Both the position numbers and the translations under genes were made by a program. From a virus, in the IMG/VR virus record IMGVR_UViG_3300028762_000049, positions 1 to 20,250 of that record: DNA of 20,250 nt; one strand, given 5' to 3'. Positions within the stretch are counted from its first letter, which is position 1. Each line of letters begins with the position of its first letter. This document shows positions 5,096 through 20,225 of the stretch, piece after piece. Below the pieces are notes generated by a model, which saw nothing but the letters and a program-made list of their open reading frames with translations, had not been told where the DNA came from and searched no databases.

Positions 5096-6136
5096 TCAAA
5101 CTGAGGCACCACCGCTAAGACTACGCCAGCTTGGAAGATGACGAACCCGAGTAAACCTGCCTCTTGCGAAGCAGAACACACGGAAGTCATCGAATTCAGC
5201 TAGCGCGGCCTTGAACTTGGCGCGGTTCTCTTTGAGAGCGTGTTCCTGCGGCATCCAGTGATAATGCTGCAGACCTAATGAAGACCTATCTTTGACCTCG
5301 ATCAGCGTGCTGCCAATCTTGAAATCTGGACGATAGCCACGGATGTCTCCGTAGATGGGATGCCTGTACTTCACCTCGCAGTTGCTGGGTTCGTACTCGA
5401 TCTGGCTTGGATCGACACCCTTCTCGTTGACTAGAAGCTCAACAAACTGCCGTTCCACCAATGAACGTGTTTTGAAGGCAACACCACCTACGGTGAACTC
5501 ATGCCAGCACGCGGAGGGCTGACACACGGTGCAGCGAACATTGTACCTAGACTTGCTTGGAGCAGTCACCTTGTAGGTCAGGAGCTTGAACTCATGACCA
5601 CACTCAGTGTCCGTAACAAGGACTGTACTTGGAACATACTGGCTGACCTTCGAACAACGCAGATTTGAATTGCGACTTCTGAGCTTCTTCACAAACTCTT
5701 CATGAGTGACGTACCTGAATCGGTCGTATGCATCCTGTCTGCATTTGACACACGGGTACTGGATCGTTGGTGTGAAGAAGACTGAAGCCACGGCGTGAAA
5801 CTTGTGGTCACACGTCAGGCACTTAAACAGATGCTTGTCGGTAGCGTAATGTCCACCAACCTTCAGGCATCTATACTTGTCTTTCCACCCCAGCTCGGCT
5901 AGCTGTTCGTTGGTGTTGGTGACAGTGCGCTCGTAAGCTTGAAACTTACGCACCATCTGACACCGACAACGCTGAACACGGGCTGATCCACGATTGACGA
6001 CACGCTTGGTACCACAAAGAGTGCACTTGACCTGACCTTCCAGCTCGTTCAACATGCGCACCATTGTGAAGGACTGACGTTCAGCGTATCTGACAATCAA
6101 CTCACGACTTGATTTGGGTTTTGGTCCGGTCTTCAT
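5096..6136 (-). CDS. Zinc-ribbon plus PD-(D/E)xK nuclease, putative homing endonuclease
   Basis: A 346-residue protein. Three cysteine-paired modules are visible: CTLC...CRC at 38-59, CLTC...CVKC at 106-132, and a degenerate C/CGH...CTVC at about 161-205. They probably bind zinc and DNA. The C-terminal nuclease domain has SLVERQFVELL (225-235), GYRPDF (267-272) and LIEVKD (278-283), the PD...ExK pattern of Vsr/TnsA-like enzymes. The frame extends upstream to 6220, but GGAAG 6 nt before the ATG at 6136 and the hairpin-rich leader favour 6136. It sits between the major capsid gene and an acidic small gene and looks more A+T-rich than its neighbours, which fits a mobile free-standing endonuclease. 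The exact target and activity are not deducible. Confidence 0.85.
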   Translation of the reverse strand: MKTGPKPKSSRELIVRYAERQSFTMVRMLNELEGQVKCTLCGTKRVVNRGSARVQRCRCQMVRKFQAYERTVTNTNEQLAELGWKDKYRCLKVGGHYATDKHLFKCLTCDHKFHAVASVFFTPTIQYPCVKCRQDAYDRFRYVTHEEFVKKLRSRNSNLRCSKVSQYVPSTVLVTDTECGHEFKLLTYKVTAPSKSRYNVRCTVCQPSACWHEFTVGGVAFKTRSLVERQFVELLVNEKGVDPSQIEYEPSNCEVKYRHPIYGDIRGYRPDFKIGSTLIEVKDRSSLGLQHYHWMPQEHALKENRAKFKAALAEFDDFRVFCFARGRFTRVRHLPSWRSLSGGASV

Positions 6137-6142
6137 TTCTAT

Positions 6143-6147
6143 CTTCC
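6143..6147 (-). promoter_or_regulatory. Ribosome binding site choosing the 6136 start
   Basis: GGAAG on the minus strand lies 6 nt before ATG at 6136. The longer in-frame start at 6220 falls in a hairpin-rich intergenic leader without a comparable site. Confidence 0.55.
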
Positions 6148-6185
6148 AGCTGGGCAAACAGCTAGTTGAATGTTGGTGACGGTAG

Positions 6186-6206
6186 CTCAGCCTTTTGCCG
6201 ACTGAG
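6186..6206 (-). other. Hairpin in the nuclease leader
   Basis: On the minus strand CTCAGTC pairs with GGCTGAG (seven pairs including one G-T) around a 7-nt loop. It lies in the leader between the capsid-gene hairpins and the nuclease start. It has no U-tract, so it is not a typical terminator. It could affect mRNA stability or translation. Confidence 0.4.
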
Positions 6207-6246
6207 CAGTGGTGCCCCACGTTCCCGCCGTAACTATCAAAGAGAA

Positions 6247-6303: not shown

Positions 6304-7377
6304 TCATAGACGGTAGCCCTTAGCGAAACTGCGAGAATTCGCCACCGAGACGGCGAGCGATTCATGCAGGACGAAGCCGCGGCCCGGGATCTTCTCGATC
6401 GAGATGTCGATCGGGGTGGACTGGAGGCCGCCGCGGTCGCTGTACGCTCCGTGGTTCATGGCGTCCGAGATCACGAAGAACTCGCCCTGGCCCAGGACCT
6501 TGTGTTCCGGGTGACGGAACGCGTCCGACGTGATGGTCATGCCGTACAGCGTGCCCAGTTCGCCGGTCAGCAGCAGCTCGTGACGCGCGACCGGGTCGAT
6601 GGCGGTGAAGAAGTCGGAGTTGCCGACCACGTCTTGCCACAGGTCCGTCGCCATCAGCAGGTGAGCGCCCTTCAGGCCCCAGCGCGTCACATTCGTGACC
6701 ACGGTCATCAGGCTGTACGGGGTCAGCTGACCCGACACGATGGTCAGGTTATTGTCGACGCCGACGAGCTGTTGGAGCTGGTTGTAGTACAGGCGGTCTT
6801 CGGCGACCATCGTCGCTTCCACTGCCTCGATGTACTTCTCTTGCAGCACGTCGCCGCTCGATTGGTTCAGCTCGACCTGGGGAATGAACGGACGGGCCAC
6901 GACCACCAGTTCCGGCGGGGTGAACCACTTGTCGCGCGTGATCTGCGACTCGACCTTCGTCGGGCTGGTCGACCAGACCGCGGTCACGTTCTTGGTGCGC
7001 AGCGGGAAGCGCGGCACCGAGCCTTGCTGGACGTCGATCTTGGCCAGGTACTTGCGCATGAAGCCCTGGCGATTCGCGGTGATGTACAGCGCGTCGCTGA
7101 TCTTCTCGCCGAGCAGGCGGTGGGCTTCTTGGTCGTTGAAGGCGGCTTGCACCAGCTCCTTCGACTGCGCGCTGTCGATGGCCAGCATGTTGCCTTGGGA
7201 GGCAGCGGTCAGGAAGCGACGTTGCTGTTCGAGCAGGTCCTTCTTGGACGAGGCGTTCAGTTCGCCTTTGCCGGAGCCAGCGTACTGGCCGACCGCGTAC
7301 TCGTTCGAGCCGGCGACCTTGATTTCGTGTGCCAGGACGGGGGCCTTGGCGGCACGGACTTGAGCTTGGGTTCGCAT
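6304..7377 (-). CDS. Major capsid protein
   Basis: A 357-residue protein forming the head shell. Seen: a polar N-terminal arm (residues 1-60), then a helical/strand body with patterns expected of an HK97-fold subunit, such as FMRKYLAKIDVQQGSVPRFP, EATMVAEDRLYYNQL, a spine-like helix region, and a terminal domain with LLTGELGTLYGMTITSDAF and EFFVISDAMNHGAYSDRGG. The length is usual for phage major capsid proteins. AGGAGA precedes the ATG at 7377. It is the third gene of a scaffold/decoration-like/capsid cassette and is followed immediately by a hairpin array. The assignment rests on segment patterns plus position; no homology search was run. The N-terminal arm may be processed by the upstream protease, but this is not shown. 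Confidence 0.88.
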   Translation of the reverse strand: MRTQAQVRAAKAPVLAHEIKVAGSNEYAVGQYAGSGKGELNASSKKDLLEQQRRFLTAASQGNMLAIDSAQSKELVQAAFNDQEAHRLLGEKISDALYITANRQGFMRKYLAKIDVQQGSVPRFPLRTKNVTAVWSTSPTKVESQITRDKWFTPPELVVVARPFIPQVELNQSSGDVLQEKYIEAVEATMVAEDRLYYNQLQQLVGVDNNLTIVSGQLTPYSLMTVVTNVTRWGLKGAHLLMATDLWQDVVGNSDFFTAIDPVARHELLLTGELGTLYGMTITSDAFRHPEHKVLGQGEFFVISDAMNHGAYSDRGGLQSTPIDISIEKIPGRGFVLHESLAVSVANSRSFAKGYRL

Positions 7378-8123: not shown

Positions 8124-9671
8124 TTAAGCCAGGGGTTGATCGGATTGCAGGAAGGACAGGGCGGACGACAGGACCGGGGTGCTGGAACGGCTGCGACGGA
8201 AGGACGGCGAACCCAGAGCCGCCGTGACGGTGGCCGCCACGGGGTTGAACTCGTCTTCCTCTTCGTCGACGCTCGATTCGACCTCGTCGCCCGCATCTTC
8301 CTCGAAGTCTTCGTCGGACGTCATGTCCAGCGAGTCAGCGTGGTTGTTGCGGACTTCCTCCGGCATGGCCGCGATGCGGTTGGCCAGGGACAGGATCGAA
8401 CGTGCGTAGGCGACGCCGTGTTCGGCGAAGCAGGAGGCGACCAACTGGGACGCACCCTTGACACCAGCACGCTTCAGCTCTTCGACCAGGCTGGCCTTGA
8501 GCGAGTTGTCCGCATCCTTGAAGTAGCGCTTGTTGATGCCGACGGCAGCGATGGCGAGGGACTGGTCCAGCGCCTTGTTCTGCTTGGCGACAGCGTCCAT
8601 GCGACTGGCGATGCCGGCCTCGACCTTGGCCTTGATGACCTTGGCGTTAGCTTGGCTGGCCGTCATCTTGACCTTGGCGAGGGTCAGACCCTGCTGGATC
8701 AGACCCTTGCGCAGACCCTTGGTGTCGATCGCGTGAGCGAGGACGTCCTGGAACTGATCGCTCAGGTAGATGTCGGACATGCCGAGCTTGCGCGCCTTGG
8801 CGGGGCCCATGCTGGCGATGATGCGGTTGCTGCGAATCACGTGCAGGCTGTTCCGAACCGTAGCGAACACGATGTCCTCGCTGCCTTCGGTGTCCGGCAC
8901 CTGGTCGGCATCGACCAGCGGAACCTGCTCGTCGGTGACGGGAGCGGCTTCGAAGTCAGCGACTTCTTCGACCGGTTCTTCCATCATCGGCTCCGCGCCT
9001 TCGGCGACGGGAGCAGCCGCGGGTTCGACTGCACCGAAGTCCTCGAACTCCTCGCCGTCTTCGTCAGCCAGCGGGGCCGCTTCAGCCATCGGGGCCGCGG
9101 GTTCGTTCGACATGGAGGGCAGGTCGTCGAACTCGTCGCCCTCCTCGTTCTCGAGTTCAGCGCCGACTTCAGCTTCGAAGCCGGGAGCCGCGTCGGTTGG
9201 ACCATCCGGATCTTCAGCCGATTCGAACTCGTCGGCATCGAGGCCTTCGAGACTGGCGTTGTTGATCACGGGCAGACCGGCTTCCTTCTCCAGGTAGCCA
9301 GCAGCCGGATCGGTCTCGTTGTCGATCAGCGCGACGTTGACGCCGTCACCGGAAGGAGCGCCGGCAGGCAATTCCTTGTCGACGAGTTGTTGCTGTTGCA
9401 TCCCGTTGGCCTTGACGGGCTTCGCAGCCGCCCTGGCCTTGACAGCTGGCTTGATCGCTGGCTTCGTGGCGGCTGTGGTCGGGGCCTTGGTTGCGCCTGG
9501 CATCGTGGGCTTGTCCTGCGAGTGGGTGAGGCCACTCTCGAAATCATCAGCATCGATGAGCATCATCGGCGCCTGCGAATTCTCCAGCCCGCTGTCCCCG
9601 TCTTCCACCTTCAGCTTGAGGTCGTTACCCTCGTGCGTGAACGCGGAAGCTGCGTTGACTTTGTCGGTCAT
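8124..9671 (-). CDS. Probable capsid scaffold / prohead core protein
   Basis: A 515-residue protein in three parts. The N-terminal third is low-complexity with an Ala/Lys/Pro tract (KPAIKPAVKARAAAKPVKA). The middle, roughly residues 110-265, is strongly acidic (ENEEGDEFDDL, EDGEEFEDF, MMEEPVEEV). The C-terminal part is helical (LRKGLIQQGLTLAKVKMTA, IKAKVEAGIASRMDAVAKQ), followed by another acidic stretch and a Ser/Arg-rich end. Acidic, extended and helical composition directly upstream of decoration and capsid genes is characteristic of scaffolds that are removed or digested during head maturation. AAGGAG lies 5 nt before ATG at 9671; a GTG at 9677 overlaps that site and is unlikely. Role inferred from composition and position. 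Confidence 0.8.
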   Translation of the reverse strand: MTDKVNAASAFTHEGNDLKLKVEDGDSGLENSQAPMMLIDADDFESGLTHSQDKPTMPGATKAPTTAATKPAIKPAVKARAAAKPVKANGMQQQQLVDKELPAGAPSGDGVNVALIDNETDPAAGYLEKEAGLPVINNASLEGLDADEFESAEDPDGPTDAAPGFEAEVGAELENEEGDEFDDLPSMSNEPAAPMAEAAPLADEDGEEFEDFGAVEPAAAPVAEGAEPMMEEPVEEVADFEAAPVTDEQVPLVDADQVPDTEGSEDIVFATVRNSLHVIRSNRIIASMGPAKARKLGMSDIYLSDQFQDVLAHAIDTKGLRKGLIQQGLTLAKVKMTASQANAKVIKAKVEAGIASRMDAVAKQNKALDQSLAIAAVGINKRYFKDADNSLKASLVEELKRAGVKGASQLVASCFAEHGVAYARSILSLANRIAAMPEEVRNNHADSLDMTSDEDFEEDAGDEVESSVDEEEDEFNPVAATVTAALGSPSFRRSRSSTPVLSSALSFLQSDQPLA

Positions 9672-9676
9672 GAGCA

Positions 9677-9682
9677 CTCCTT
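9677..9682 (-). promoter_or_regulatory. Ribosome binding site choosing the 9671 start
   Basis: AAGGAG on the minus strand lies 5 nt before ATG at 9671. The alternative GTG at 9677 overlaps this site, so it cannot use it. Confidence 0.7.
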
Positions 9683-10418: not shown

Positions 10419-10604
10419 CTAGTTCTTCGTTGCGTGAATGGACTGCGACTCGCTTCCGCTGTTCAGGAGTCGGGCTTTGGCGCCCTTGCTCGTGTCAGGG
10501 ACCTGCATGTAGGCGCCAGGATCCACGTTGATGGAGCTGGATTGACCCACGCTATTTGGCTGCAAGAGGCGAGCCTTTGACTTGGTGACAACGGGTTTGG
10601 TCAT
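10419..10604 (-). CDS. Small protein with two copies of a KARLL motif
   Basis: A 61-residue protein. Its ATG overlaps the stop of the preceding gene by 4 nt (ATGA), which implies coupled translation. It contains two related segments, SKARLLQPNSVGQS (9-22) and AKARLLNSGSESQS (42-55), spaced 33 residues apart. The KARLL core matches the AKxRLL core at the N-termini of three other proteins in this window. The rest is polar and probably disordered. No known family is recognised. A role as a small internal head protein or processing substrate is speculative and rests on the motif and on the protease two genes upstream. Confidence 0.7.
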   Translation of the reverse strand: MTKPVVTKSKARLLQPNSVGQSSSINVDPGAYMQVPDTSKGAKARLLNSGSESQSIHATKN

Positions 10605-11305
10605 TCGTAGTCGTCAGGATTAACACCAGCCTTCTTGCACGCGGCAGAGAAGATCTTGTCGCTGCAGAACTCCTGCAACTTGTCGTAGGCCTCGTCGTCG
10701 AGGTCAGCGACCGGATCTGTGATGCCTAGGACCTCGCCAACGATGACGACTATATCGTCGAATTCGTAGTCGCGGCCAGTGTGCTTCTTCAGGTAGGCAG
10801 CGACCTTGTCTACGGCCTTCGCTGTCTGTTCCGGAGTGAACTTCGGCAGATCAGAACTTGGCGCAAATGTCGTCGCGAGCTTGGCACTGGTCTCCAAAGC
10901 CGTCAACGGAATCCATATGATGTCACTTGTGTTCACGACCTTCGTTCCTGGGTTGGCCGGGAAATACTGGTGCTCAACTGGAGCCGGGGTCGTCAGCATC
11001 CGATTTGCCTTGGCGACCGGAGTCGGAACATCCTTCATGCCTCCTGCGATGCCAGGAGTCGAGATGTAGGCCTTACCCATGGATGCGAGACCCGGTTTCA
11101 TGACCACGATTTTGAGACTTCTCTTTCCTTGCATGTCCCAGACCTGCTTGATACAGCCCTGGATCGGTTTCGTGATCTCGATCTGGAATTTGTGACTGTT
11201 CGCACCATTGAGTTTTGACGTCGCCTTCTTCACGAAGTCCGGTGTCAGCGCTTGACCGGCGGGAGCGGCGAGGAGGCGTTGCTTGGCTTGCAGATTGAGT
11301 GTCAT
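10601..11305 (-). CDS. Tagged hypothetical protein of the protease block
   Basis: A 234-residue protein beginning MTLNLQAKQRLLA, a start shared with two other genes at 19606 and 19833. The body has a beta-rich part (HKFQIEITKPIQG, SLKIVVMKPGLASMGKAYIS) and a helical, acidic C-terminus (FTPEQTAKAVDKVAAYLKK, DEAYDKLQEFCSDKIF). An in-frame ATG at 11317 overlaps the protease stop and would add four residues. I prefer 11305 because it is the position conserved among the three tagged genes. The gene follows the prohead protease and overlaps the 61-residue gene by 4 nt. Internal head or core protein is plausible; the function is unknown. Confidence 0.78.
   Translation of the reverse strand: MTLNLQAKQRLLAAPAGQALTPDFVKKATSKLNGANSHKFQIEITKPIQGCIKQVWDMQGKRSLKIVVMKPGLASMGKAYISTPGIAGGMKDVPTPVAKANRMLTTPAPVEHQYFPANPGTKVVNTSDIIWIPLTALETSAKLATTFAPSSDLPKFTPEQTAKAVDKVAAYLKKHTGRDYEFDDIVVIVGEVLGITDPVADLDDEAYDKLQEFCSDKIFSAACKKAGVNPDDYE
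11267..11305 (-). repeat. Shared N-terminal tag, copy 1
   Basis: Codes for MTLNLQAKQRLLA. The first nine bases ATGACACTC and the CAAGC block are identical to the copies at 19606 and 19833. The bases just upstream (AACAAA) also resemble those of the copy at 19606 (ACACAAA). Confidence 0.75.
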
Positions 11306-11310
11306 TTTGT

Positions 11311-12078
11311 TCACCATGTCATTACGTGATCGGAAAGGGCTGGAACCCAGGCTGGGTCTCGAACGAGTGATAGTTCGATCGGACTCAAACCGTGAGCCCT
11401 CAAGAAAGCAATGTGCTGACGTCCCATGTAGTCCACGATCTGCCAGTTCACATCCTTTGTCCCACCGACGTGACTGCAGTTAGCGAATTGGTTGTCCCCG
11501 ACTTCACGACCGCAGACACTGCAAGAGAACGAGTCAGCAAGCGCACCCATTGACACGGTGTTGATCTTGCCGTCCAATACTTCCTGCGCGATGTCAGGGT
11601 GCTTGTTCTTGTCGATGCCGGCCAGACCCATGACCTTGTAGTGTCGGCCCTGTCCGTAGTTCTGGATCCTGGTCAATGCCGTGTCAAAGACCACACCGTA
11701 GGCTTTCGTGCAGTCTTCGTTGTCGTGTTCCAAGTGCATTGGACACCCTCGCCACGCCTCGAATACCTGTCGGTTCATCGGAGGTGGCTGGAACTTGATC
11801 AACTCCTGCAGAGGGAAGCCGATGCCGTTGCGATTGGGGAAATCGCTCGGGCAGATCGGGACGTTCTTGAAGATGTAGTCTTCGATGTGAGGGCTTATGT
11901 GGTACGTCTTCGCCGCGAACGGGAGCCAGTGCTCAAAATCCAGTTTTGCAACCAGCTCCGGTTCTTTCTCCGCGTCGTAAGCCTGTTCCTGGCTCACACC
12001 TACGCCCTTGACCAGTGTGCTTGCCATCAGCAGCTCGCGCCGCAGGTCTTGATCGTGGTACTGCTGAGGGAAGCGCAT
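11311..12078 (-). CDS. Prohead maturation protease
   Basis: A 255-residue protein that probably cleaves scaffold and capsid proteins in the prohead. The pattern fits the His-Ser phage prohead proteases: a histidine region MHLEHDNEDCTKAYG (114-128), a strand KVMGLAGID (148-156), the nucleophile region INTVSMGA (172-179, candidate Ser176), and a conserved-looking end GLSPIELSLVRDPAW (230-244). Between the Ser region and the end is a CSVCG...CSH cluster (186-203), likely a zinc site. CAGGAG lies 9 nt before the ATG at 12078; an internal ATG at residue 18 is less likely. The stop overlaps the next gene region, suggesting coupling. The family is assigned from motif layout and context; the catalytic residues are proposed, not proven. 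Confidence 0.82.
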   Translation of the reverse strand: MRFPQQYHDQDLRRELLMASTLVKGVGVSQEQAYDAEKEPELVAKLDFEHWLPFAAKTYHISPHIEDYIFKNVPICPSDFPNRNGIGFPLQELIKFQPPPMNRQVFEAWRGCPMHLEHDNEDCTKAYGVVFDTALTRIQNYGQGRHYKVMGLAGIDKNKHPDIAQEVLDGKINTVSMGALADSFSCSVCGREVGDNQFANCSHVGGTKDVNWQIVDYMGRQHIAFLRAHGLSPIELSLVRDPAWVPALSDHVMTW

Positions 12079-12475: not shown

Positions 12476-13285
12476 TTACTCCTTGGCCACAGGAGGAGTC
12501 GGAGCCGCGGTGGTCGTCGGTTCGATCAGCTTCTTGGCTTCCGCCTCGGCTGCTGCTGCATCTGCCTCCAGCTTGGCCTTCACGGCAGCAGCGGCAGCTT
12601 CAGCTTCCGCCGCCGCTTCGTCAGCGAGCTTCTTGGCTTCTGCCTCGGCAGCGGCGACCTCTGCTTTTGCCTTGGCTTCCGTTTCTGCAGCCAAGTCAGC
12701 GGCGGCTGCATCGGCCACCTTCTTGGCTTCTGCCTCGGCAGCGGCGACCTCTGCTTTTGCCTTGGCTTCCGTTTCTGCAGCCAAGTCAGCGGCGGCTGCA
12801 TCGGCCACCTTCTTGGCGTCGGCTTCTGTGGTGTCGACCACGACTGCGGACTGACTCGTGACCTTGGCCTCCACCTTCCCGGTCAGAGCATTGACCTCGG
12901 TCTCCACCCCGTTCTTCACCAGACCCGCCAGATGTGCGGCTTCCGCCGTCAGCTTCGGGGCCAGATCGTGTGCTCCTTGAGCCACGGCGTGCTCGAAGCG
13001 GTGCCACTCGTCGCCGATGTGCTGGAGACCGACGGATGACAGGAAACTCCGGACAAGGCCGAACTCGTGGATCAGGAAGCCCTCGCCTTCGGACAGGACG
13101 TGACCGGCCTTGGTCATGGCTGCCTTGAGCGCGCTGTAACCGACCAGAGTCGGATCCGGCGTCTGCGGCTTCGCGTTGTCCGGATTCACAGCAACCGCGG
13201 GATTCGGGTTCGAATCGCTGACGGTGCCAGCCGGCGGCGACGTGGGTTCGGGAGTCGAGACGGGGGTCGAGACTTGATCGGTCAT
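12476..13285 (-). CDS. Alanine-rich coiled-coil protein with tandem repeat
   Basis: A 269-residue protein. Residues 1-45 are rich in Pro, Ser and Thr and likely disordered. Residues about 46-110 look globular (LVGYSALKAAMTKAGHVL, FGLVRSFLSSVGLQHIGDEW). Residues about 155-255 form an Ala/Glu/Lys helical tract including two identical 30-residue units that start EAKKVADAAAADLAAETEAK. The tract resembles TolA-like rods and likely forms a long single helix or coiled coil. AAGGAA lies 5 nt before ATG at 13285, so the longer frame to 13342 is rejected. It lies between the helicase gene and the virion-type genes. The function is unknown; a structural or internal head role is inferred from the neighbours. 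Confidence 0.8.
   Translation of the reverse strand: MTDQVSTPVSTPEPTSPPAGTVSDSNPNPAVAVNPDNAKPQTPDPTLVGYSALKAAMTKAGHVLSEGEGFLIHEFGLVRSFLSSVGLQHIGDEWHRFEHAVAQGAHDLAPKLTAEAAHLAGLVKNGVETEVNALTGKVEAKVTSQSAVVVDTTEADAKKVADAAAADLAAETEAKAKAEVAAAEAEAKKVADAAAADLAAETEAKAKAEVAAAEAEAKKLADEAAAEAEAAAAAVKAKLEADAAAAEAEAKKLIEPTTTAAPTPPVAKE
12629..12817 (-). repeat. Perfect 90-bp tandem duplication
   Basis: Bases 12629-12727 are identical to 12719-12817, a 90-bp period repeated about 2.1 times. The unit encodes 30 residues in the coiled-coil protein and keeps the frame. Complete nucleotide identity implies a very recent duplication or active copy-number exchange. More diverged EAKK[VL]AD-type units flank it. 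Confidence 0.95.
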
Positions 13286-13353
13286 GATGGTTCCTTGATA
13301 AGTGTGGGCACACAAAGGGCTGGTACTGAGCCGGCCCCGCATGCGATTAAATT

Positions 13354-13369: not shown

Positions 13370-16300
13370 TTACTTCTTTGCCTTCTTCTTAACGACGGGT
13401 GCTTCGTCGTCAGCAGCTTCCTTCTTCAGTGGGACGAGTTCGTCGTTCTGATTTTTCACCATCGAGACCTTCCGAACCTGGGCTGCGTCGGCCTTCAGTT
13501 CGTCGAGATTCTCGACGTTGATACCAGCGTCGATCAGCGCCTTCGTTGCCTTCACCGCCCCTGCCACATTGTTGACAAAGAGCGACATAGCTGGTTCGCT
13601 CACCATCCACTTTGACGACGGGGCCTTGAGCGCCGGATTTACCGCGTTCTTGGCACCCGGATGACCCGGTCCGTATGGGAGGCAGAGGTACGCTGCTCCA
13701 TAGTGCGGATTCTGGCCATCTTTCGCGTAGTCCGCCAGCGCAGCCGGGTCGGTGTCACCACCGTCGGTCACGAGAGCGAAGATCTGCAGCAGCTTCGGAT
13801 CAGCCGTGGCTTTGAATTCACCACGCAAGTAGTTCTTGAAGCCGGCGCCGCCGATCAGGCGATCGTAGTGCTTCGGGGTGAGGATGCCCCCACCTTTCAG
13901 CTCCTGTGCGAGGATCGACATCGTATCGCCGTAGAACTTCGAGTCGAACTTGAAGCCAGCGGCCTGCCACTTCTTACACTGAGTCATCAAGTGCAGGTAA
14001 TGCCGGATGCGGGTCTTCCAGTACATCGGGTCGTGCGTGAAACCCATAGCCTGCAAAGCCTTGACAGCACGAGCGTCCTTGCCGACCTTGTAACTCAGCC
14101 TCATGTAGCCGTTGACCAGCTCGAGTTCGAGGCCGATCGTGATGGCCTTGTTGACCTTTTCCACCACCTGCTCTTCCTGCAGGCGCTTCTTCTTGAGCTT
14201 CGGATTCTTGGCTTCTTCCTCGGCTTGACGACGATCGGCCTCTTCTTGCTCACGGCGGGTGATCTTGCGCTGCACCGTGTTGAACGACGGTACCGTGATC
14301 GGGGCAGTGACAGCGAGACCAGCCGCTTCAGCCAGCTTGTTCCGCATGTCAACTCCGTTGGTCTCCGTGCGCGTGACGATGAACACGTTGGTGACGCGGA
14401 GATTGCGACCAACAGTCCCGTCGTCGAACCGCACAACCAGACGCATGATGAAGTTGCCCTTCTTTGCCGCACCCGTCGCCGCGATGTAGCCGTCGCCGAG
14501 TTCGGTGTGAACCTTGCGGCCCATCACCATCTCGGTCTGCTGCTTGATGGCGAGGCGGCGCGCTTCGGCTGCTGCGCTGTGATCGCTCTCGTCTTCGCTC
14601 GACTCATCATCGTCGTTATCGTCACCCTCCTCGTCGGCTTCACGGCTCAGTTCGAGGCCGATGAAGTTGTCGACCCGGACCAAGCCGAGTTCACTCGCCT
14701 TGTAGAGCTCGGTGCCTGGCGCGTACGGGACACGCTGCAGCAACGCGGCGGCCGCAGGAGTCGGAGCCGGCTTCACCTGCGTGAGATGGAATCCACCAGC
14801 CGCCTCCATCTCCTTTCGGTACGCCTCGTTCTCGGCCTTCATGACGTCGTTCAGGGCGACCAGCGAGCGCTGATACTTAGCCAGGTTGGAGCCAAAGTCG
14901 TTCATGGTCTGGATGTTTTCCAGATTCATGGACAGCACAGGAATCGACGGGATGGTCTGATAGTTCGGGTCGTTCGGGTTCTCGAACTTGGCGACCGCCA
15001 CGATCTTGGCACGCAGACGCGCCGCCTTCGTGATGTCGATCGTGCGGTTGGCTACGATGGTGTCGAACTTCAGCACCTTCCGCTTGGCCACGCCAGGACG
15101 GAAGTCAGGACGTGCGATGCGGGAATCCCCCTGCTCCTGCTCACCCGGCGTCCACACCCCCTCGACGCGGATCATGTAGTCCGCGTCCTGGAGATTGAGG
15201 CCCACCTCCAGGCTGTGGCGGATGCCGATCATCCAGCGGATCTTCTTGTCGGTCTTGAACCGGTTGACCATCTCGGTCTTGAAGCCGGTCTTGTAGAGAA
15301 TGCCGCAGTCCTGCAGCTCCTTCGGCATGGCGGCGAACAGCGTGTCGGTCGACTCGTTGTAGTTCGTGAAGACCAGCACCTTGGCATCGCTGGTTGCCAG
15401 ATGCTCAGTCAGCAGCTTCTGCAGCTCCACTGCCTTCGGGCTCTTCAGGTCGTCACCTGTCAGAGGAGCGATGTGTTCGCCCTTGTCGTTGACGAAGCCA
15501 TTGCGCGCGTAGGGGTGGCCGGCCGGATTGGTCACGAACCGTTCGATGTCAGCGAGGTACGGCTGGAGGCCCGGACCGACGTCGCCGCCGTCGTCCTCTT
15601 CACCTTCTTCGCCCTCTTCGGTTTCGGTCTCATTCTCGACCTTCGGGGCATCACCCAGGTCACCGAACTGATCTTCGTCTTCCGGCGTCGCGCTCTTGCC
15701 CGTCAGTTGGTCCAGCAGCTTCTGGGCCTTCTTGTTGGTCTTCGCCTTCTCGCGGATCTGACTCACCATGTCGTCGAAGATCGCGTCGTACATGATCTTC
15801 TGGCGCTCGGACAACGACACAGAGAGGAAACGGTCGATGCGCTCTGGGAGGGCGCAGGCCCATTCCTTGCGCTTGGCCGGCGCCCAGACGATGGTACGTT
15901 GCAACGTCGGGAGCACGGTCGACACAGCATTCGGGCCCGTGTCCTGCCACGTGATGACGCGACCACCCTTGACTTCCTTGCCGTACTTCTCGTTGAAGTC
16001 CTGACGGGAGCCGAAGATCGTCGGGTCCAGGATCGCCGTCTGACCGGGCAGATCGGACGGGCTGTCCGGGTTCATGGTACCGGAGGCGATGCGCTTCTTC
16101 TTGATGTCGGCGACAAGGCTCATCACGGCCTTGAAGCGGGCACGACCAGCGTTGCGCAGGAAGTGCGACTCGTCCATCATGACGTAGCCGGGCTTGAATT
16201 GGCGGAGCATGTCCACTACAGGGAACACGGAGACCGACGACGTTCCGTACACCGTCTTGTAGTTGCCGTACTTCAGTGCGTCGTAGTCGACGACCAGGAT

Positions 16301-18244
16301 CGTATTGATCGGGGCCGCACGCAGGATCTCCTCGAAGCGCTTGACACCCGTGGTCTTGACGTTATAAGAGGTGACCGGGATCACGTTGACCTTGCCGTCG
16401 GTGAACTCGACGATCTCGGACACGTAGTTCGCCACCAGATGGGAGGGGCACATCACGAGGTAGGGCGCGCTCTCACCCTCCTTGATTTCGTATAGGATAT
16501 CCGTGATCGTGAGCATCGACTTTCCGCCGCCGGCATCGATGGGCCAAGCTGCATTGTCGGGCCGGCTGCGCATGATGTTGCGCACCTTGTTTTGGTGAGG
16601 CAGCAGTCCTGCTCCGTCGACGCTGAACTTGCCGGTCAGGAGTGGGCAGTCAGGCGGCGTCCAGTTCGGATCAACTCCTTGGTCGGTGGCCGGCTGGTTG
16701 ATTGTGTTGGCGGCAGCCGTGGTCGTAGCCAGATCGCCACCGTACGACGACAGGACGGTCAGCATGCCGAGGTTGTCCACCATTGTCGACACGGCGTACT
16801 TGACGAACAGGGCTTCGATGTTGGCGACCATCGCCGGTTGCAGCGTCTTCACGAAGCGCGCGATGGGCGCAAAGTTGGCCAGCTCCTCGTCCGTACCCTT
16901 CGTGTCCAACGACTGCATGATGTCGTAGTAGCGCAGATCCTGCTTGCCCGTCACTTCGTGGAACGTCTGGATCGCCTTCTGGGCCCAGGCCACGATGTTG
17001 TTTGGAACGCGAAGCTTCGCCGGATCAGCACCGTAATCCGTTGCGAGGACGCTGGTCTTGCACTCGGTGGCGTAGAAGCTGAGCTTCTTCACGTACTCGG
17101 TCGGCAGCGGGCGCTTCAGCACGTTCATGGCCATGGAGGCGTTGAACTTACGCATGTGCGCCAGGTCCAGAACCACAGGCTTGCCGACGGTCGAGCTGTA
17201 CACGAATTTGTTGTTCACCCAGTCCGTGAGGATGGGGATGTTGACGGGGAGCTTCGGTTCATTGATCGAGCCAACCTGGCGCAGGGCGAACTCACCGTTG
17301 TCCTTGGTGCCGGCGCTGTTGTACGACGACTCGTAGCGCTGCGTGTTGTCGCATTCCTTGGGGATCCAGAGCGGCTCACCGTCCATGTTGACGGTCAGGT
17401 TGTGCTCATCGACCCGCTCGTCACCCTTGATGTAGGGAGGGAGCGTGGACGCGATCTTGGAGATGGCTAGGCTGGTCTTCCCGTACAGTGCAGGCACGTA
17501 CTCGGCTTCTGACCAGGCAGTGAACAGCGGGTACAGGTCGAGGGCACGGATCTCTAGCCAGTCAGTGCTGGTCAGGTACTCGGCCTCATCCTTCATCACC
17601 TTGAACTCGACGAACACGGTGATGAAGTTGCCGGTCTGGCGGTAGACGACGCCGAAGCACGCCTGGGTTAACAGGGTCATCGCATCCGGGCGCAGTCCTG
17701 CGTTTGACAGGATCTTGGCCGCCGCGTAGTTGGTCTGCTTCAGCTCGTCACGCTGCGCCGTAGGAAGCGATGCTTCTGCCTGTTCGGTCAGTGACACGCC
17801 GTCGAACATGGTCAGGATGTTCGAGAGCTCGATGCCAGAGGAGAACTGCACGACAGGAACTGCGAGCAGGAAGTGAGACAGGTCGCCGTCATTGACCTTC
17901 TTCAGCGTTGTGTACTGTGCCAGATGCTGATCCAGGCGCTTGGATTCCCACTCGGCGATCGTTTTGGAGCGAGCGCGCTTGGAGCTACGCTCCTCTGGTG
18001 TGCGAGCAGCCGATCCAGCCGCGGTCCCCATGCTGCTCATGTTCATGAGCGGAGCGACAGCGACCTTGAGGAGGGTCTTGCGCGCGTCGCCAGCGTACTT
18101 CTTGTTGAAGATGCCCAGGAAGCCTGAGGCCTTCTTCTGCTTCGGCAGAGCGAACTTGACGTCCGGGACCAGATTGGACCGGGGGCGCTTGACCTCCGCC
18201 GCAATCGTTCGGTGCTTCTTAGCGCTCGGGGAAATGGTGTTCAT
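13370..18244 (-). CDS. Giant SNF2-type helicase/translocase
   Basis: A protein of about 1624 residues. The first 530 residues match no family I recognise. The ATPase core follows: LLPHQ (547-551), Walker A DAGGGKS (570-576), MMDESHFLRN (689-698, the DExH-type box of SNF2 proteins), SGTMNPDSP (721-729), and lobe 2 with KVLVFTNYNES (955-965), SLEVGLNLQDADYMIRVEG (1011-1029) and the arginine-finger region WTPGEQEQGDSRIARP (1031-1046). A Glu/Asp-rich loop at about 853-887 splits the two lobes. The C-terminal 550 residues hold a second acidic linker, a small beta domain (LGDGYIAATG...VRFDDGTVG) and a Lys-rich end. AGGAGG lies 6 nt before ATG 18244, overlapping the previous gene by 26 nt. The position among head genes suggests a packaged, DarB-like protein; this is inference. 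Confidence 0.85.
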   Translation of the reverse strand: MNTISPSAKKHRTIAAEVKRPRSNLVPDVKFALPKQKKASGFLGIFNKKYAGDARKTLLKVAVAPLMNMSSMGTAAGSAARTPEERSSKRARSKTIAEWESKRLDQHLAQYTTLKKVNDGDLSHFLLAVPVVQFSSGIELSNILTMFDGVSLTEQAEASLPTAQRDELKQTNYAAAKILSNAGLRPDAMTLLTQACFGVVYRQTGNFITVFVEFKVMKDEAEYLTSTDWLEIRALDLYPLFTAWSEAEYVPALYGKTSLAISKIASTLPPYIKGDERVDEHNLTVNMDGEPLWIPKECDNTQRYESSYNSAGTKDNGEFALRQVGSINEPKLPVNIPILTDWVNNKFVYSSTVGKPVVLDLAHMRKFNASMAMNVLKRPLPTEYVKKLSFYATECKTSVLATDYGADPAKLRVPNNIVAWAQKAIQTFHEVTGKQDLRYYDIMQSLDTKGTDEELANFAPIARFVKTLQPAMVANIEALFVKYAVSTMVDNLGMLTVLSSYGGDLATTTAAANTINQPATDQGVDPNWTPPDCPLLTGKFSVDGAGLLPHQNKVRNIMRSRPDNAAWPIDAGGGKSMLTITDILYEIKEGESAPYLVMCPSHLVANYVSEIVEFTDGKVNVIPVTSYNVKTTGVKRFEEILRAAPINTILVVDYDALKYGNYKTVYGTSSVSVFPVVDMLRQFKPGYVMMDESHFLRNAGRARFKAVMSLVADIKKKRIASGTMNPDSPSDLPGQTAILDPTIFGSRQDFNEKYGKEVKGGRVITWQDTGPNAVSTVLPTLQRTIVWAPAKRKEWACALPERIDRFLSVSLSERQKIMYDAIFDDMVSQIREKAKTNKKAQKLLDQLTGKSATPEDEDQFGDLGDAPKVENETETEEGEEGEEDDGGDVGPGLQPYLADIERFVTNPAGHPYARNGFVNDKGEHIAPLTGDDLKSPKAVELQKLLTEHLATSDAKVLVFTNYNESTDTLFAAMPKELQDCGILYKTGFKTEMVNRFKTDKKIRWMIGIRHSLEVGLNLQDADYMIRVEGVWTPGEQEQGDSRIARPDFRPGVAKRKVLKFDTIVANRTIDITKAARLRAKIVAVAKFENPNDPNYQTIPSIPVLSMNLENIQTMNDFGSNLAKYQRSLVALNDVMKAENEAYRKEMEAAGGFHLTQVKPAPTPAAAALLQRVPYAPGTELYKASELGLVRVDNFIGLELSREADEEGDDNDDDESSEDESDHSAAAEARRLAIKQQTEMVMGRKVHTELGDGYIAATGAAKKGNFIMRLVVRFDDGTVGRNLRVTNVFIVTRTETNGVDMRNKLAEAAGLAVTAPITVPSFNTVQRKITRREQEEADRRQAEEEAKNPKLKKKRLQEEQVVEKVNKAITIGLELELVNGYMRLSYKVGKDARAVKALQAMGFTHDPMYWKTRIRHYLHLMTQCKKWQAAGFKFDSKFYGDTMSILAQELKGGGILTPKHYDRLIGGAGFKNYLRGEFKATADPKLLQIFALVTDGGDTDPAALADYAKDGQNPHYGAAYLCLPYGPGHPGAKNAVNPALKAPSSKWMVSEPAMSLFVNNVAGAVKATKALIDAGINVENLDELKADAAQVRKVSMVKNQNDELVPLKKEAADDEAPVVKKKAKK

Positions 18245-18605
18245 TGTGCACCTCCTTGGACTGGATGATCGATTGGAATTGTCGGAGATCAGCTTTGCCC
18301 TCAGCGTTGATCTCACCTTGTTGGAAACTCTTGTACAGAGCCAGGAAGCGATTGAAGGACTCGACGTTGAGCTTGAGGCGGAATGGCGAGTCGTGCAGGT
18401 TATGCATCTCAGCCTTGAAGTTTCGACTCTGTGGTCCGATGTTGTGCTGACGGAGCCATGCGACCTTGGCACGCTCGACAGCCTGAGGGAACGACACGGC
18501 GGTCACCTCTCCGCTGTCGCCACGGAAACTCCATTCAAACCCGATCCACTTCTTCTCGACCGGAGTTTGGACAGGTCGTGAACGTAGGTCACTCTGGACA
18601 CGCAT
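18219..18605 (-). CDS. Hypothetical protein upstream of helicase
   Basis: A 128-residue basic protein with no recognised family. It contains KKWIGFEWSFRGDSGEVTAVSFP (18-40, cut here by its beta-like pattern), a helical middle (AVERAKVAWLRQHN) and a helical end (SFNRFLALYKSFQQG, LRQFQSIIQSK). GGAGG lies 6 nt before the ATG at 18605, in a context (GGAGGTGCAGA) nearly the same as that of the helicase gene. Its end overlaps the helicase start by 26 nt, so the pair is probably translationally coupled and functionally linked. Confidence 0.75.
   Translation of the reverse strand: MRVQSDLRSRPVQTPVEKKWIGFEWSFRGDSGEVTAVSFPQAVERAKVAWLRQHNIGPQSRNFKAEMHNLHDSPFRLKLNVESFNRFLALYKSFQQGEINAEGKADLRQFQSIIQSKEVHNEHHFPER
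18251..18256 (-). promoter_or_regulatory. Ribosome binding site fixing the helicase start
   Basis: AGGAGG on the minus strand lies 6 nt before ATG at 18244. It rejects the longer in-frame extension to 18472, which would overlap almost all of the 128-residue gene. Confidence 0.75.
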
Positions 18606-18769: not shown

Positions 18770-19606
18770 TCAGATGGAGTCGGGGCCTTGCGGCAAGTCA
18801 TTCATGAGGAGCGGCTGATCGCTGGGCTCTTCGGTGCCGCCGTCGTTCGTGGTCAGCTCCTGGACCACCGGCTCCTCTTGCGAGGGATCACCGTCGATCA
18901 GCATGTCGAATGCGTCGCCGCTGCTCACGTCGTCGATGAAGCTGGCCTCAGCCTTTTTGTCGTCGGCTGACTTCGACTTCTTGCCGCTATTCTTCCACTT
19001 CTCGTAGTCGAACGGTTCTTCGTTGGGGCCGGCGTCAGCTCCTTGCTCTGCGATCAACATGGCAACCACTTCCTCGCTTGTCAGGCTGCGGCCATGCTCG
19101 GCTTCCTTGGCTGCCTTGACTTCAGCGAAGGCAGCCAGCGCCTCGGCCTTGGTGAAGTAGCGAGGGCTGGCGTTCATCGTCAGGTCGCCTTCCGGATTCA
19201 GGACCGTGTTCGGGTGCTCGTTCTCGTCCAACGTTTCGGACGGGCAAGCCGCGGATTCCACGGTATCAGCAGCCTGTGCATCGGCCTTTCCCTTCGTCAT
19301 ATCAGCGGTGTTGGCGACGGGCAGGGTTTCGAAGTCGGACGTGTCGTTGGCCAGCAGAGTTTCGATCATGCGGGCTTCGAGTGCGCGTGTAGTCTCGTCT
19401 AGCACTCTCTGAGCCTGTTCGCGCGTCTCTTCCAGCGCGGCAACCGAGTCACTATCTGCGTTGGCGAAGAATGCGTTCGGGTTCGGTGTCGCGCCGGCAC
19501 CAGGCTCGTCGCTGGTGTCGATCCCGTCGATCGGCTCGTCAGTCGCCACGAGTTCTGGCACTTGACTGGCAAGGAGGCGCTGCTTAGCTTGAAGTTCGAG
19601 TGTCAT
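18770..19606 (-). CDS. Acidic protein with shared N-terminal tag
   Basis: A 278-residue protein beginning MTLELQAKQRLLAS, matching the starts at 11305 and 19833. The rest is acidic and mostly low-complexity, with two helical segments: VAALEETREQAQRVLDETTR (about 55-75) and SPRYFTKAEALAAFAEVKA (about 145-165). A Lys-rich patch KKSKSADDKK lies near 205. Its ATG overlaps the stop of the previous gene by 4 nt (ATGA); an upstream in-frame GTG at 19618 is less likely because the tag start is conserved. About 165 nt without a convincing gene follow. Acidic, disordered composition fits a scaffold-like or internal head protein, but the function is unknown. Confidence 0.75.
   Translation of the reverse strand: MTLELQAKQRLLASQVPELVATDEPIDGIDTSDEPGAGATPNPNAFFANADSDSVAALEETREQAQRVLDETTRALEARMIETLLANDTSDFETLPVANTADMTKGKADAQAADTVESAACPSETLDENEHPNTVLNPEGDLTMNASPRYFTKAEALAAFAEVKAAKEAEHGRSLTSEEVVAMLIAEQGADAGPNEEPFDYEKWKNSGKKSKSADDKKAEASFIDDVSSGDAFDMLIDGDPSQEEPVVQELTTNDGGTEEPSDQPLLMNDLPQGPDSI
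19568..19606 (-). repeat. Shared N-terminal tag, copy 2
   Basis: Codes for MTLELQAKQRLLA. It differs from the copy at 11305 at a single residue (Glu for Asn), while several synonymous bases differ. That points to protein-level selection rather than only recent DNA copying. Confidence 0.75.
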
Positions 19607-19833
19607 TTGTGTTTCCACTTCCGTGCTGATTCAGCAAATTCCGCCATTTTTGCGGGATGGCCGCCGGCGGCCTTTCCCTTGGCGATGTCTGCGTCGGTGA
19701 TTGGTTCGGACGGATCTTTGCCCAACCATTCGTGAAATCCGTTCTTCTTGATCGGACCGATAGGAGTTGCGTCCACGTGGACAAAGCCTTGGTCAGCCTT
19801 GAGGCGTGCTTTGGCTTGCAAAGCGAGTGTCAT
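19603..19833 (-). CDS. Small protein with shared N-terminal tag
   Basis: A 76-residue protein beginning MTLALQAKARLKADQG, the third member of the tagged set. The middle reads as a short globular segment (IGPIKKNGFHEWLGKDP) and the end is basic (GKAAGGHPAKMAEF, ARKWKHK). AAGGA lies 7 nt before ATG at 19833 and overlaps the stop region of the HNH gene, and the stop overlaps the next tagged gene by 4 nt. An in-frame extension to 19884 would overlap the HNH gene and is rejected. No known family. Confidence 0.72.
   Translation of the reverse strand: MTLALQAKARLKADQGFVHVDATPIGPIKKNGFHEWLGKDPSEPITDADIAKGKAAGGHPAKMAEFAESARKWKHK
19795..19833 (-). repeat. Shared N-terminal tag, copy 3
   Basis: Codes for MTLALQAKARLKA, the most diverged of the three N-terminal copies. 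It keeps ATGACACTC, CAAGCCAA and CGCCTC at the nucleotide level. Confidence 0.65.
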
Positions 19834-19844
19834 CTCGTGATCCT

Positions 19845-20225
19845 TCAAGGGACGTAGGGCTTGAGTTTGGGCTTTCGGCCCCAAGGATTGGAGACCTTAG
19901 GTTTCTGGCCTCCGAGCCGCACCGTGTTTTCGGGTCTGCGGATCGTGTGACCGGCGTGTCGCGCGTCGTGGCACGAGGCACACAACGTGATCAGGTTACT
20001 GTGCGTCGTGGTGCCGCCAGATGCCAGGCTGCGTATGTGATGAACCTCCCGTCCGGGCGCTCCGCATCGGAAGCCGAGGTTGTTCCGGCTCTGGCAGCAC
20101 CCGTCATCACGCTTGAAGACTTGGTCACGAATGGTCCACCAATCGGTCTGCGCGTTCGAGTATCCGTCCCGCTTGATCCTCGCCGTTCCGTCAGCCCGAC
20201 GAGTGGTTTTCGTACTTCGCTTCAT
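19845..20225 (-). CDS. HNH endonuclease
   Basis: A 126-residue protein with a compact HNH (beta-beta-alpha metal) nuclease core: FKRDDGCCQ (37-45), VHHIRSLASGG (61-71), NLITLCASCHDARHAGH (77-93). The two adjacent histidines, the central Asn and the CxxCH pair are the expected metal-binding and catalytic positions. The N-terminus and C-terminus are basic and would contact DNA. It may be a free-standing homing endonuclease or a phage packaging-linked HNH protein; no terminase is in view to support the latter. The ATG at 20225 has no clear ribosome site in the 25 bases available, so the start is less certain than the family. Confidence 0.88.
   Translation of the reverse strand: MKRSTKTTRRADGTARIKRDGYSNAQTDWWTIRDQVFKRDDGCCQSRNNLGFRCGAPGREVHHIRSLASGGTTTHSNLITLCASCHDARHAGHTIRRPENTVRLGGQKPKVSNPWGRKPKLKPYVP

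Follow-up and report, generated by a model that had tools for sequence, protein, structure and literature searches.

An N-terminal peptide common to unrelated proteins of a jumbo-phage lineage: a probable address for head cargo

Three Genes With One Beginning

Why should three genes whose products are otherwise unlike each other begin with the same few residues? The question is raised by a viral contig of 20,250 bases, analyzed here in its entirety and referred to as the window. Three of its minus-strand genes (starts at 19833, 19606 and 11305) open with MTL[AEN]LQAK[AQ]RL[LK]A. The pattern occurs three times in the window and its reversed control not once, and the bodies that follow it form three separate families by body similarity, which bears out the preliminary description of this DNA as encoding a tag common to three otherwise unrelated proteins.

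The contig codes for a tail sheath, a capsid protein, a head maturation protease and a giant helicase, i.e., part of a contractile-tailed jumbo phage. The capsid protein shares 70% identity with those of BcepSauron and BcepSaruman, both Burkholderia phages, and 56% with its counterpart in the Achromobacter phage Motura. The window is a piece of the genome of a jumbo myophage like BcepSauron and Motura. A sister contig (G001, 28,976 bases) encodes proteins identical to those of the window over the genes compared. The features that matter here are the following.

6304..7377, minus strand: major capsid protein (phrog_2522, E 2.6e-88)
8124..9677, minus strand: scaffold-like head protein, PHROG label 'ATPase', start uncertain
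10419..10604, minus strand: fourth gene, 61 aa, putative degenerate tag MTKPVVTKSKARLLQP with internal repeat KARLL, assigned by positional equivalence
10601..11305, minus strand: tagged gene 3, 234 aa, directly after the prohead protease
11267..11305, minus strand: N-terminal tag MTLNLQAKQRLLA of gene 3, seen in the sequence
11311..12078, minus strand: head maturation (prohead) protease (phrog_18299, E 3e-77)
13370..18472, minus strand: giant DNA helicase, start uncertain (phrog_21391, E 6.4e-89)
18770..19606, minus strand: tagged gene 2, 278 aa, acidic, model mostly disordered
19568..19606, minus strand: N-terminal tag MTLELQAKQRLLA of gene 2, LQAKxRLLA invariant in four homologues
19603..19833, minus strand: tagged gene 1, 76 aa, no Pfam match
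19795..19833, minus strand: N-terminal tag MTLALQAKARLKA of gene 1, seen in the sequence and kept in homologues G004:55178, G006:53884 and G007:88219

The neighborhood given for these genes was also correct, as gene 3 directly follows the prohead protease and genes 1 and 2 precede the giant helicase. All three tagged genes were confirmed, but the fourth, degenerate copy (10604-10419) had been missed. Its positional equivalents in two relatives (G006:62562 and G004:64434) are clearly tagged short ORFs located between the protease and the scaffold-like gene. The start of gene 2 overlaps the stop of gene 1 (AAATGA), so that translation of the two may be coupled. That the starts converge on the methionine of the tag held only in part. 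Upstream in-frame starts exist (ATG at 11317, four codons before the tag methionine of gene 3, GTG at 19618 and TTG at 19848), and therefore the choice rests on homologues and public annotation and not on the window alone. GenBank starts coincide with ours in six of the seven tagged genes in the first annotated stretch of Motura (gp168, gp170, gp171, gp175, gp176 and gp177) and in gp75, gp77, gp91 and gp99 of BcepSauron.

The three window proteins had no significant homologue in public phages and no match in Pfam, PHROGs or NCBIfam, and homologues of gene 3 were found only in sister contigs. AlphaFold2 folds the tag of the gene 2 product into a helix spanning residues 2-14, at a pLDDT of about 60, and the linker behind it has low confidence; these runs used two to four sequences and gave low-confidence models, from which we use the helix alone, and weakly. 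Two other genes of the contig deserve mention. One, of 374 aa and zinc-ribbon-like (5096-6220), separates the capsid gene from the following head gene and may be an inserted mobile gene, since the relatives G006 and G004 have no gene there. The other, upstream of the protease genes at 12476-13342, encodes a protein of 288 aa that is rich in alanine and contains nearly perfect internal repeats (AEAEAKKVADAAAADLAAETEAKAKAEVAA).

The Tag in Related Phages

It had been proposed that proteins starting with this pattern be sought in related phages, and the search found the tag on many more genes. When the definition was fixed as A-x(1,2)-R-[LIVM]-x-[AS] close to the beginning of a called gene (called starts only), there were 130 tagged genes in 15 records, belonging to 77 families by body similarity. 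Motura, a complete genome, has 16 among its 332 genes (about 5%), and there are 18 in G014, 12 in G009 and 11 in G012. Control genomes have 0-2 each, equal to the shuffled expectation, and the six of BcepSauron are a count within its null range. Most of the genomes are metagenomic fragments, with genes from a simple home-made caller. A looser first set (197 genes, 119 families) held false positives from internal ATGs, e.g., the helicase and Motura gp198; the conclusions held when it was replaced by the set of called starts.

Close relatives carry 6-15 tagged genes per partial genome. The sister contig adds MDLQAKTRL (two genes), MLQLQAKYRL, VKLQLQAKARL, MELQAKQRL and MQIQAKHRL. Contigs with capsid proteins at least 88% identical have 5-14 matches each to the core pattern, nearly all on one strand, and none to the reversed core pattern. 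A relaxed form of the motif was found in the clade 47 times at the N-terminus and once internally.

The tag was also rediscovered by an unbiased scan in which no motif was given, only over-represented gapped residue triplets in the first 13 residues after the methionine, compared with 60 column shuffles. The top triplets were all parts of the tag (QA..R, L.A..R, A..RL, I.A..R and K..A..R), i.e., hydrophobic-x-A-x-x-R-L-x-A. In 11 records (window, G001, G004, G006, G007, Motura, G012, G014, G013, G009 and G003) all 60 shuffles stayed below the observed score. The scan was borderline in G010 and G016, and showed nothing in BcepSauron alone, G017, Erwinia Y3, PaBG, Rhizobium N28, Xanthomonas PhiXhv (first 200 kb) and stretches of Peetri and GR11A. 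PaBG, Y3, PhiXhv and the Rhizobium phage are relatives at a greater distance. Scans of the whole of IMG/VR with strict forms of the tag gave repeated matches per contig in the lineage and single ones elsewhere, several by chance; those in the unrelated viral contigs L014, L015, L018 and L019, ORFs of 14 codons, were discarded as such. Our literature searches, covering open-licence papers, found no report of the tag.

A second short motif, [DE]W[WF]...S...Q..YLKEHP.SKYA, is often found directly after the tag on otherwise different proteins: G001 6741 (-), G010 90555, G012 3925 (-), G014 140679 (-), G016 23444 (-), G003 109448 (-) and 101666 (-), and BcepSauron gp75, with three copies. It is present too in Erwinia and Rhizobium jumbo phages.

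Lineage Dialects and the Proteins Behind the Tag

The spelling of the tag differs by lineage: LQAKxRLxA in the clade of the window, IQAxARLxA in Motura, KLEAAxRLxA in G012, KVKLNAAxRLAA in G014 and [FI]AxR[ILV]LA in G003. At five variable positions, unrelated proteins of the same lineage agree in 46% of cases, against 23% for homologues from different lineages and 21% for unrelated proteins from different lineages; when lineage labels were shuffled, same-lineage agreement reached at most 29.5% (0.295). The tag goes with the phage and not with the protein, the outcome one would expect from a single phage-specific partner that reads every tag. An N-terminus MKLTAHY or MKLTAHF is common to five small genes in G016 and to another five in L048. 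It is statistically borderline and possibly the same tag in a further dialect (MKLTAHY in G016 being perhaps the dialect of another lineage).

Where the protein behind the tag could be recognized, the tag is a detachable extension ahead of known enzyme domains. Oligoribonuclease-like proteins align to solved oligoribonucleases only from about residue 16 (G007) or 28 (G004), past tag and linker. Tagged Nudix domains begin at residue 196 (G004), 118 (G007) and 32 (BcepSauron gp99), and a saccharopine dehydrogenase or homospermidine-synthase-like domain at residue 26 (G009) or 24 (G013). There are also tagged SprT-like proteins (G012 and G010) and DUF3175 proteins (BcepSauron and G014). Motura gp163 (142820-143056, minus strand; 78 aa) is tagged and weakly resembles ribosome modulation factor (PF04957, 25.2 bits, below the cut-off of 27.9), which makes a packaged ribosome inhibitor possible. 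Finally, G003 has a tagged Alt-type ADP-ribosyltransferase of 322 aa (PF03496 2.4e-28; phrog_802 5.4e-9). The enzyme was tagged in this one relative and was not seen in the clade of the window.

Some proteins have the tag in one phage and lack it in another. G009 and G013 carry the saccharopine-type enzyme with a tag, Motura without. A family of 430 residues containing ELPKFRY is tagged in G012, G013, G010 and G014, and its members in Motura and G003 begin at or beside ELPKFRY or its equivalent. Absence of the motif from homologues had been named as the result that would count against the tag; when this was examined, homologues within a lineage were found to keep it, and some homologues in tag-using phages are without it.

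Position Among Head Genes

In Motura, 13 of 14 tagged genes lie within 35 kb of the capsid gene, against 99 of all 332 genes (P 0.001). Similar clustering was found in G014 (17 of 18 tagged genes, P 0.0014), G009 (P 0.0004) and G007 (P 0.0026), and with P<0.005 in G004, G006 and BcepSauron. The tagged genes are mostly on the strand of the capsid gene, including G004 and G006, in which both are on the plus strand. Seven consecutive tagged genes in Motura (gp158-gp164) end two genes from the head-tail connector gp166. Clustering around the capsid gene was not significant in G003 (P 0.68), the carrier of the Alt-like enzyme and of the most divergent dialect, or in G012, and some tagged genes are far from head genes.

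We propose that M-x(0-9)-[hydrophobic]-x-A-x-x-R-L-x-A is a peptide that addresses cargo to the phage head in this jumbo-phage lineage, and put the probability of this reading at roughly two in three. It is argued from constraint on the peptide (see below), the strictly N-terminal location, the unrelated bodies, the dialects, the neighborhood of head genes and the Alt-type enzyme. These are several independent lines of indirect support for a function like that of a capsid targeting sequence.

The dialects and the modularity would suit any phage-specific receptor, and the tag could instead take its proteins to another site or partner that the phage builds in the infected cell, e.g., a replication or transcription complex, a membrane, the tail or the baseplate. 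The tagged Nudix, oligoribonuclease, SprT and saccharopine dehydrogenase proteins could act in the producing cell, and some tagged genes are near tail genes. On the other hand, the tagged genes cluster with those of capsid, protease and connector, and the Alt-like enzyme is among their products, so that we consider such a destination unlikely, while giving it some weight. A membrane anchor of the amphipathic helix type was unsupported, as the amphipathicity of the tag is nothing unusual (mean helical moment of 0.28 vs. 0.30 in the bodies).

Cleavage Sites Sought After the Tag

The preliminary description had suggested an analogue of the T4 signal serving in head loading or processing. Head loading is the best supported part of it, with the head as the probable location, but processing found no backing, since no consistent protease site follows the tag. 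The end of the tag, R-L-x-A, is conserved, and neither A-x-E, the motif cut by the SPN3US protease (PMC10052503), nor the L/I-x-E of T4 comes consistently after it. Composition and cleavage-site counts rest on 173 genes of the looser set. L/I/V-x-E was not enriched after the tag (1.5% of positions vs. 1.3% in the bodies), and A-x-E within 25 residues past the tag was present in 24% of the proteins vs. 11% of windows elsewhere, an excess that comes partly from the fixed alanine of the tag. A universal A-x-E or L-x-E site was not found.

The tag might instead be chiefly a propeptide that the prohead protease recognizes and removes, cutting behind R-L-x-A or at an A-x-E close by. This reading is quite improbable: the conserved end of the tag and the excess of A-x-E would fit it, but three quarters of the tagged proteins have no A-x-E there. 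A further point in its favor comes from the capsid proteins of the lineage, which keep an A-x-E near residue 18 (AHE in the window, 6304-7377; ASE or ATE elsewhere) after a tag-like start, e.g., KVxVxAxK; this A-x-E may be a site of the prohead protease.

Peptide or DNA

The 32 LQAKxRL tags of the clade are encoded by 32 distinct strings of 21 nt. Their codon diversity at Leu, Ala, Lys and Arg equals or exceeds that expected from genome usage, with the exception of one position, the second Leu, where it is slightly low (P 0.033). In the family of gene 2, LQAK-x-RLLA is invariant in homologues only 42-45% identical to the window protein. The conserved unit is the peptide and not the DNA, as had been claimed from silent differences among the window copies.

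These data also speak to the idea that one N-terminal gene end was copied by recombination onto many genes, the peptide being functionless. The same tag does occur on unrelated bodies of adjoining genes, some in runs such as that of Motura, but all 32 tags differ in DNA while the peptide stays, the tag is invariant where the body has diverged, and the dialects agree within lineages and differ between them, which makes such a by-product very improbable. A translated DNA or RNA element (promoter, translation enhancer or recombination site), for which one could cite that Gln is CAA in 26 of the 32 tags although the genomes favor CAG, is rejected at the DNA level by the codon analysis and has a negligible chance overall, since untagged genes are also richer in CAA near the start (42% vs. 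15%, a bias weaker than in the tags), the other codons vary as the genome does and the tags lie at distances from the start codon that differ by as much as about nine codons.

Comparison With Known Systems

The internal proteins of T4 reach the prohead core by means of N-terminal propeptides of 10-19 residues; for IPIII the first ten are enough, and Alt and the internal proteins are ejected into the host (PMC9026906). The likeness to the T4 capsid targeting sequence (IPI, IPII, IPIII and Alt) extends to some ten N-terminal residues on otherwise unrelated proteins, a prohead protease encoded by the phage, an Alt-type ADP-ribosyltransferase among the carriers (in our case in one relative) and a signal that persists while cargo varies between related phages (PMC9026906, PMC5694885). 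The sequence of the tag is different, the T4 cleavage signature was tested and is absent, and the tag has many more carriers (11-18 in several genomes) and lineage dialects, so we do not claim that it is the T4 sequence itself. In phage P1, a fluorescent protein needs no more than the first 30 residues of DarB to be packaged (PMC9024508). There an N-terminal peptide loads an injected protein into the phage head, as the tag presumably would, but the authors saw no consensus among the Dar proteins (PMC9024508), whereas the tag is a clear consensus across dozens of families.

The ejection proteins of phiKZ and SPN3US are giant-phage head proteins with N-terminal propeptides thought to target the prohead, and the paralogues gp53 and gp54 have an identical N-terminus. 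Those propeptides are mostly longer than 100 residues, are cut at A-x-E and occur on few proteins, unlike the tag, with about 11-20 residues and no consistent A-x-E. A proteome was found for PaBG, a phage that has no tag, and none for a tagged phage. Outside phages, short terminal peptides load unrelated enzymes into the protein shells of bacterial microcompartments and encapsulins. These shells are unrelated to phage heads, and microcompartment cargo peptides are clearly amphipathic, which the tag is not to any unusual degree.

Head Cargo Possibly Legible From the Genome

If the tag addresses cargo to the head, the tagged proteins, encoded among head genes, would probably be made late. The short tag, probably helical, would bind some part of the head under assembly, e.g., the scaffold core, the portal or the inner face of the capsid. 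Candidates for its partner are the scaffold-like protein (8124..9677; gp186 in Motura), a small protein whose gene follows that of the capsid, and the capsid protein itself. The proteins would then be injected into the next bacterium. The receptor would co-evolve with the tag, giving each phage lineage its own dialect, and the protein behind the tag would be exchanged freely. To this fuller picture, of a lineage-wide tag with a receptor-coevolving dialect that loads swappable, unrelated effectors into the head for injection, with an arsenal that the genome reveals, we give about even odds.

Little is known of what jumbo phages package and inject, and finding it out usually takes virion proteomics. 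If the tag is a loading signal, the cargo list of any phage in the lineage could be read from its genome; across the lineage it would include an ADP-ribosyltransferase, Nudix, oligoribonuclease, SprT-like and saccharopine-dehydrogenase-like proteins and possibly an RMF-like one, together with dozens of proteins of unknown function that would become candidates for host takeover and counter-defence. Dialects that shift together across unrelated genes point to one co-evolving receptor that one could look for. A tag this short and portable could, like the T4 and P1 signals, also be used to bring proteins of choice into the heads of large phages.
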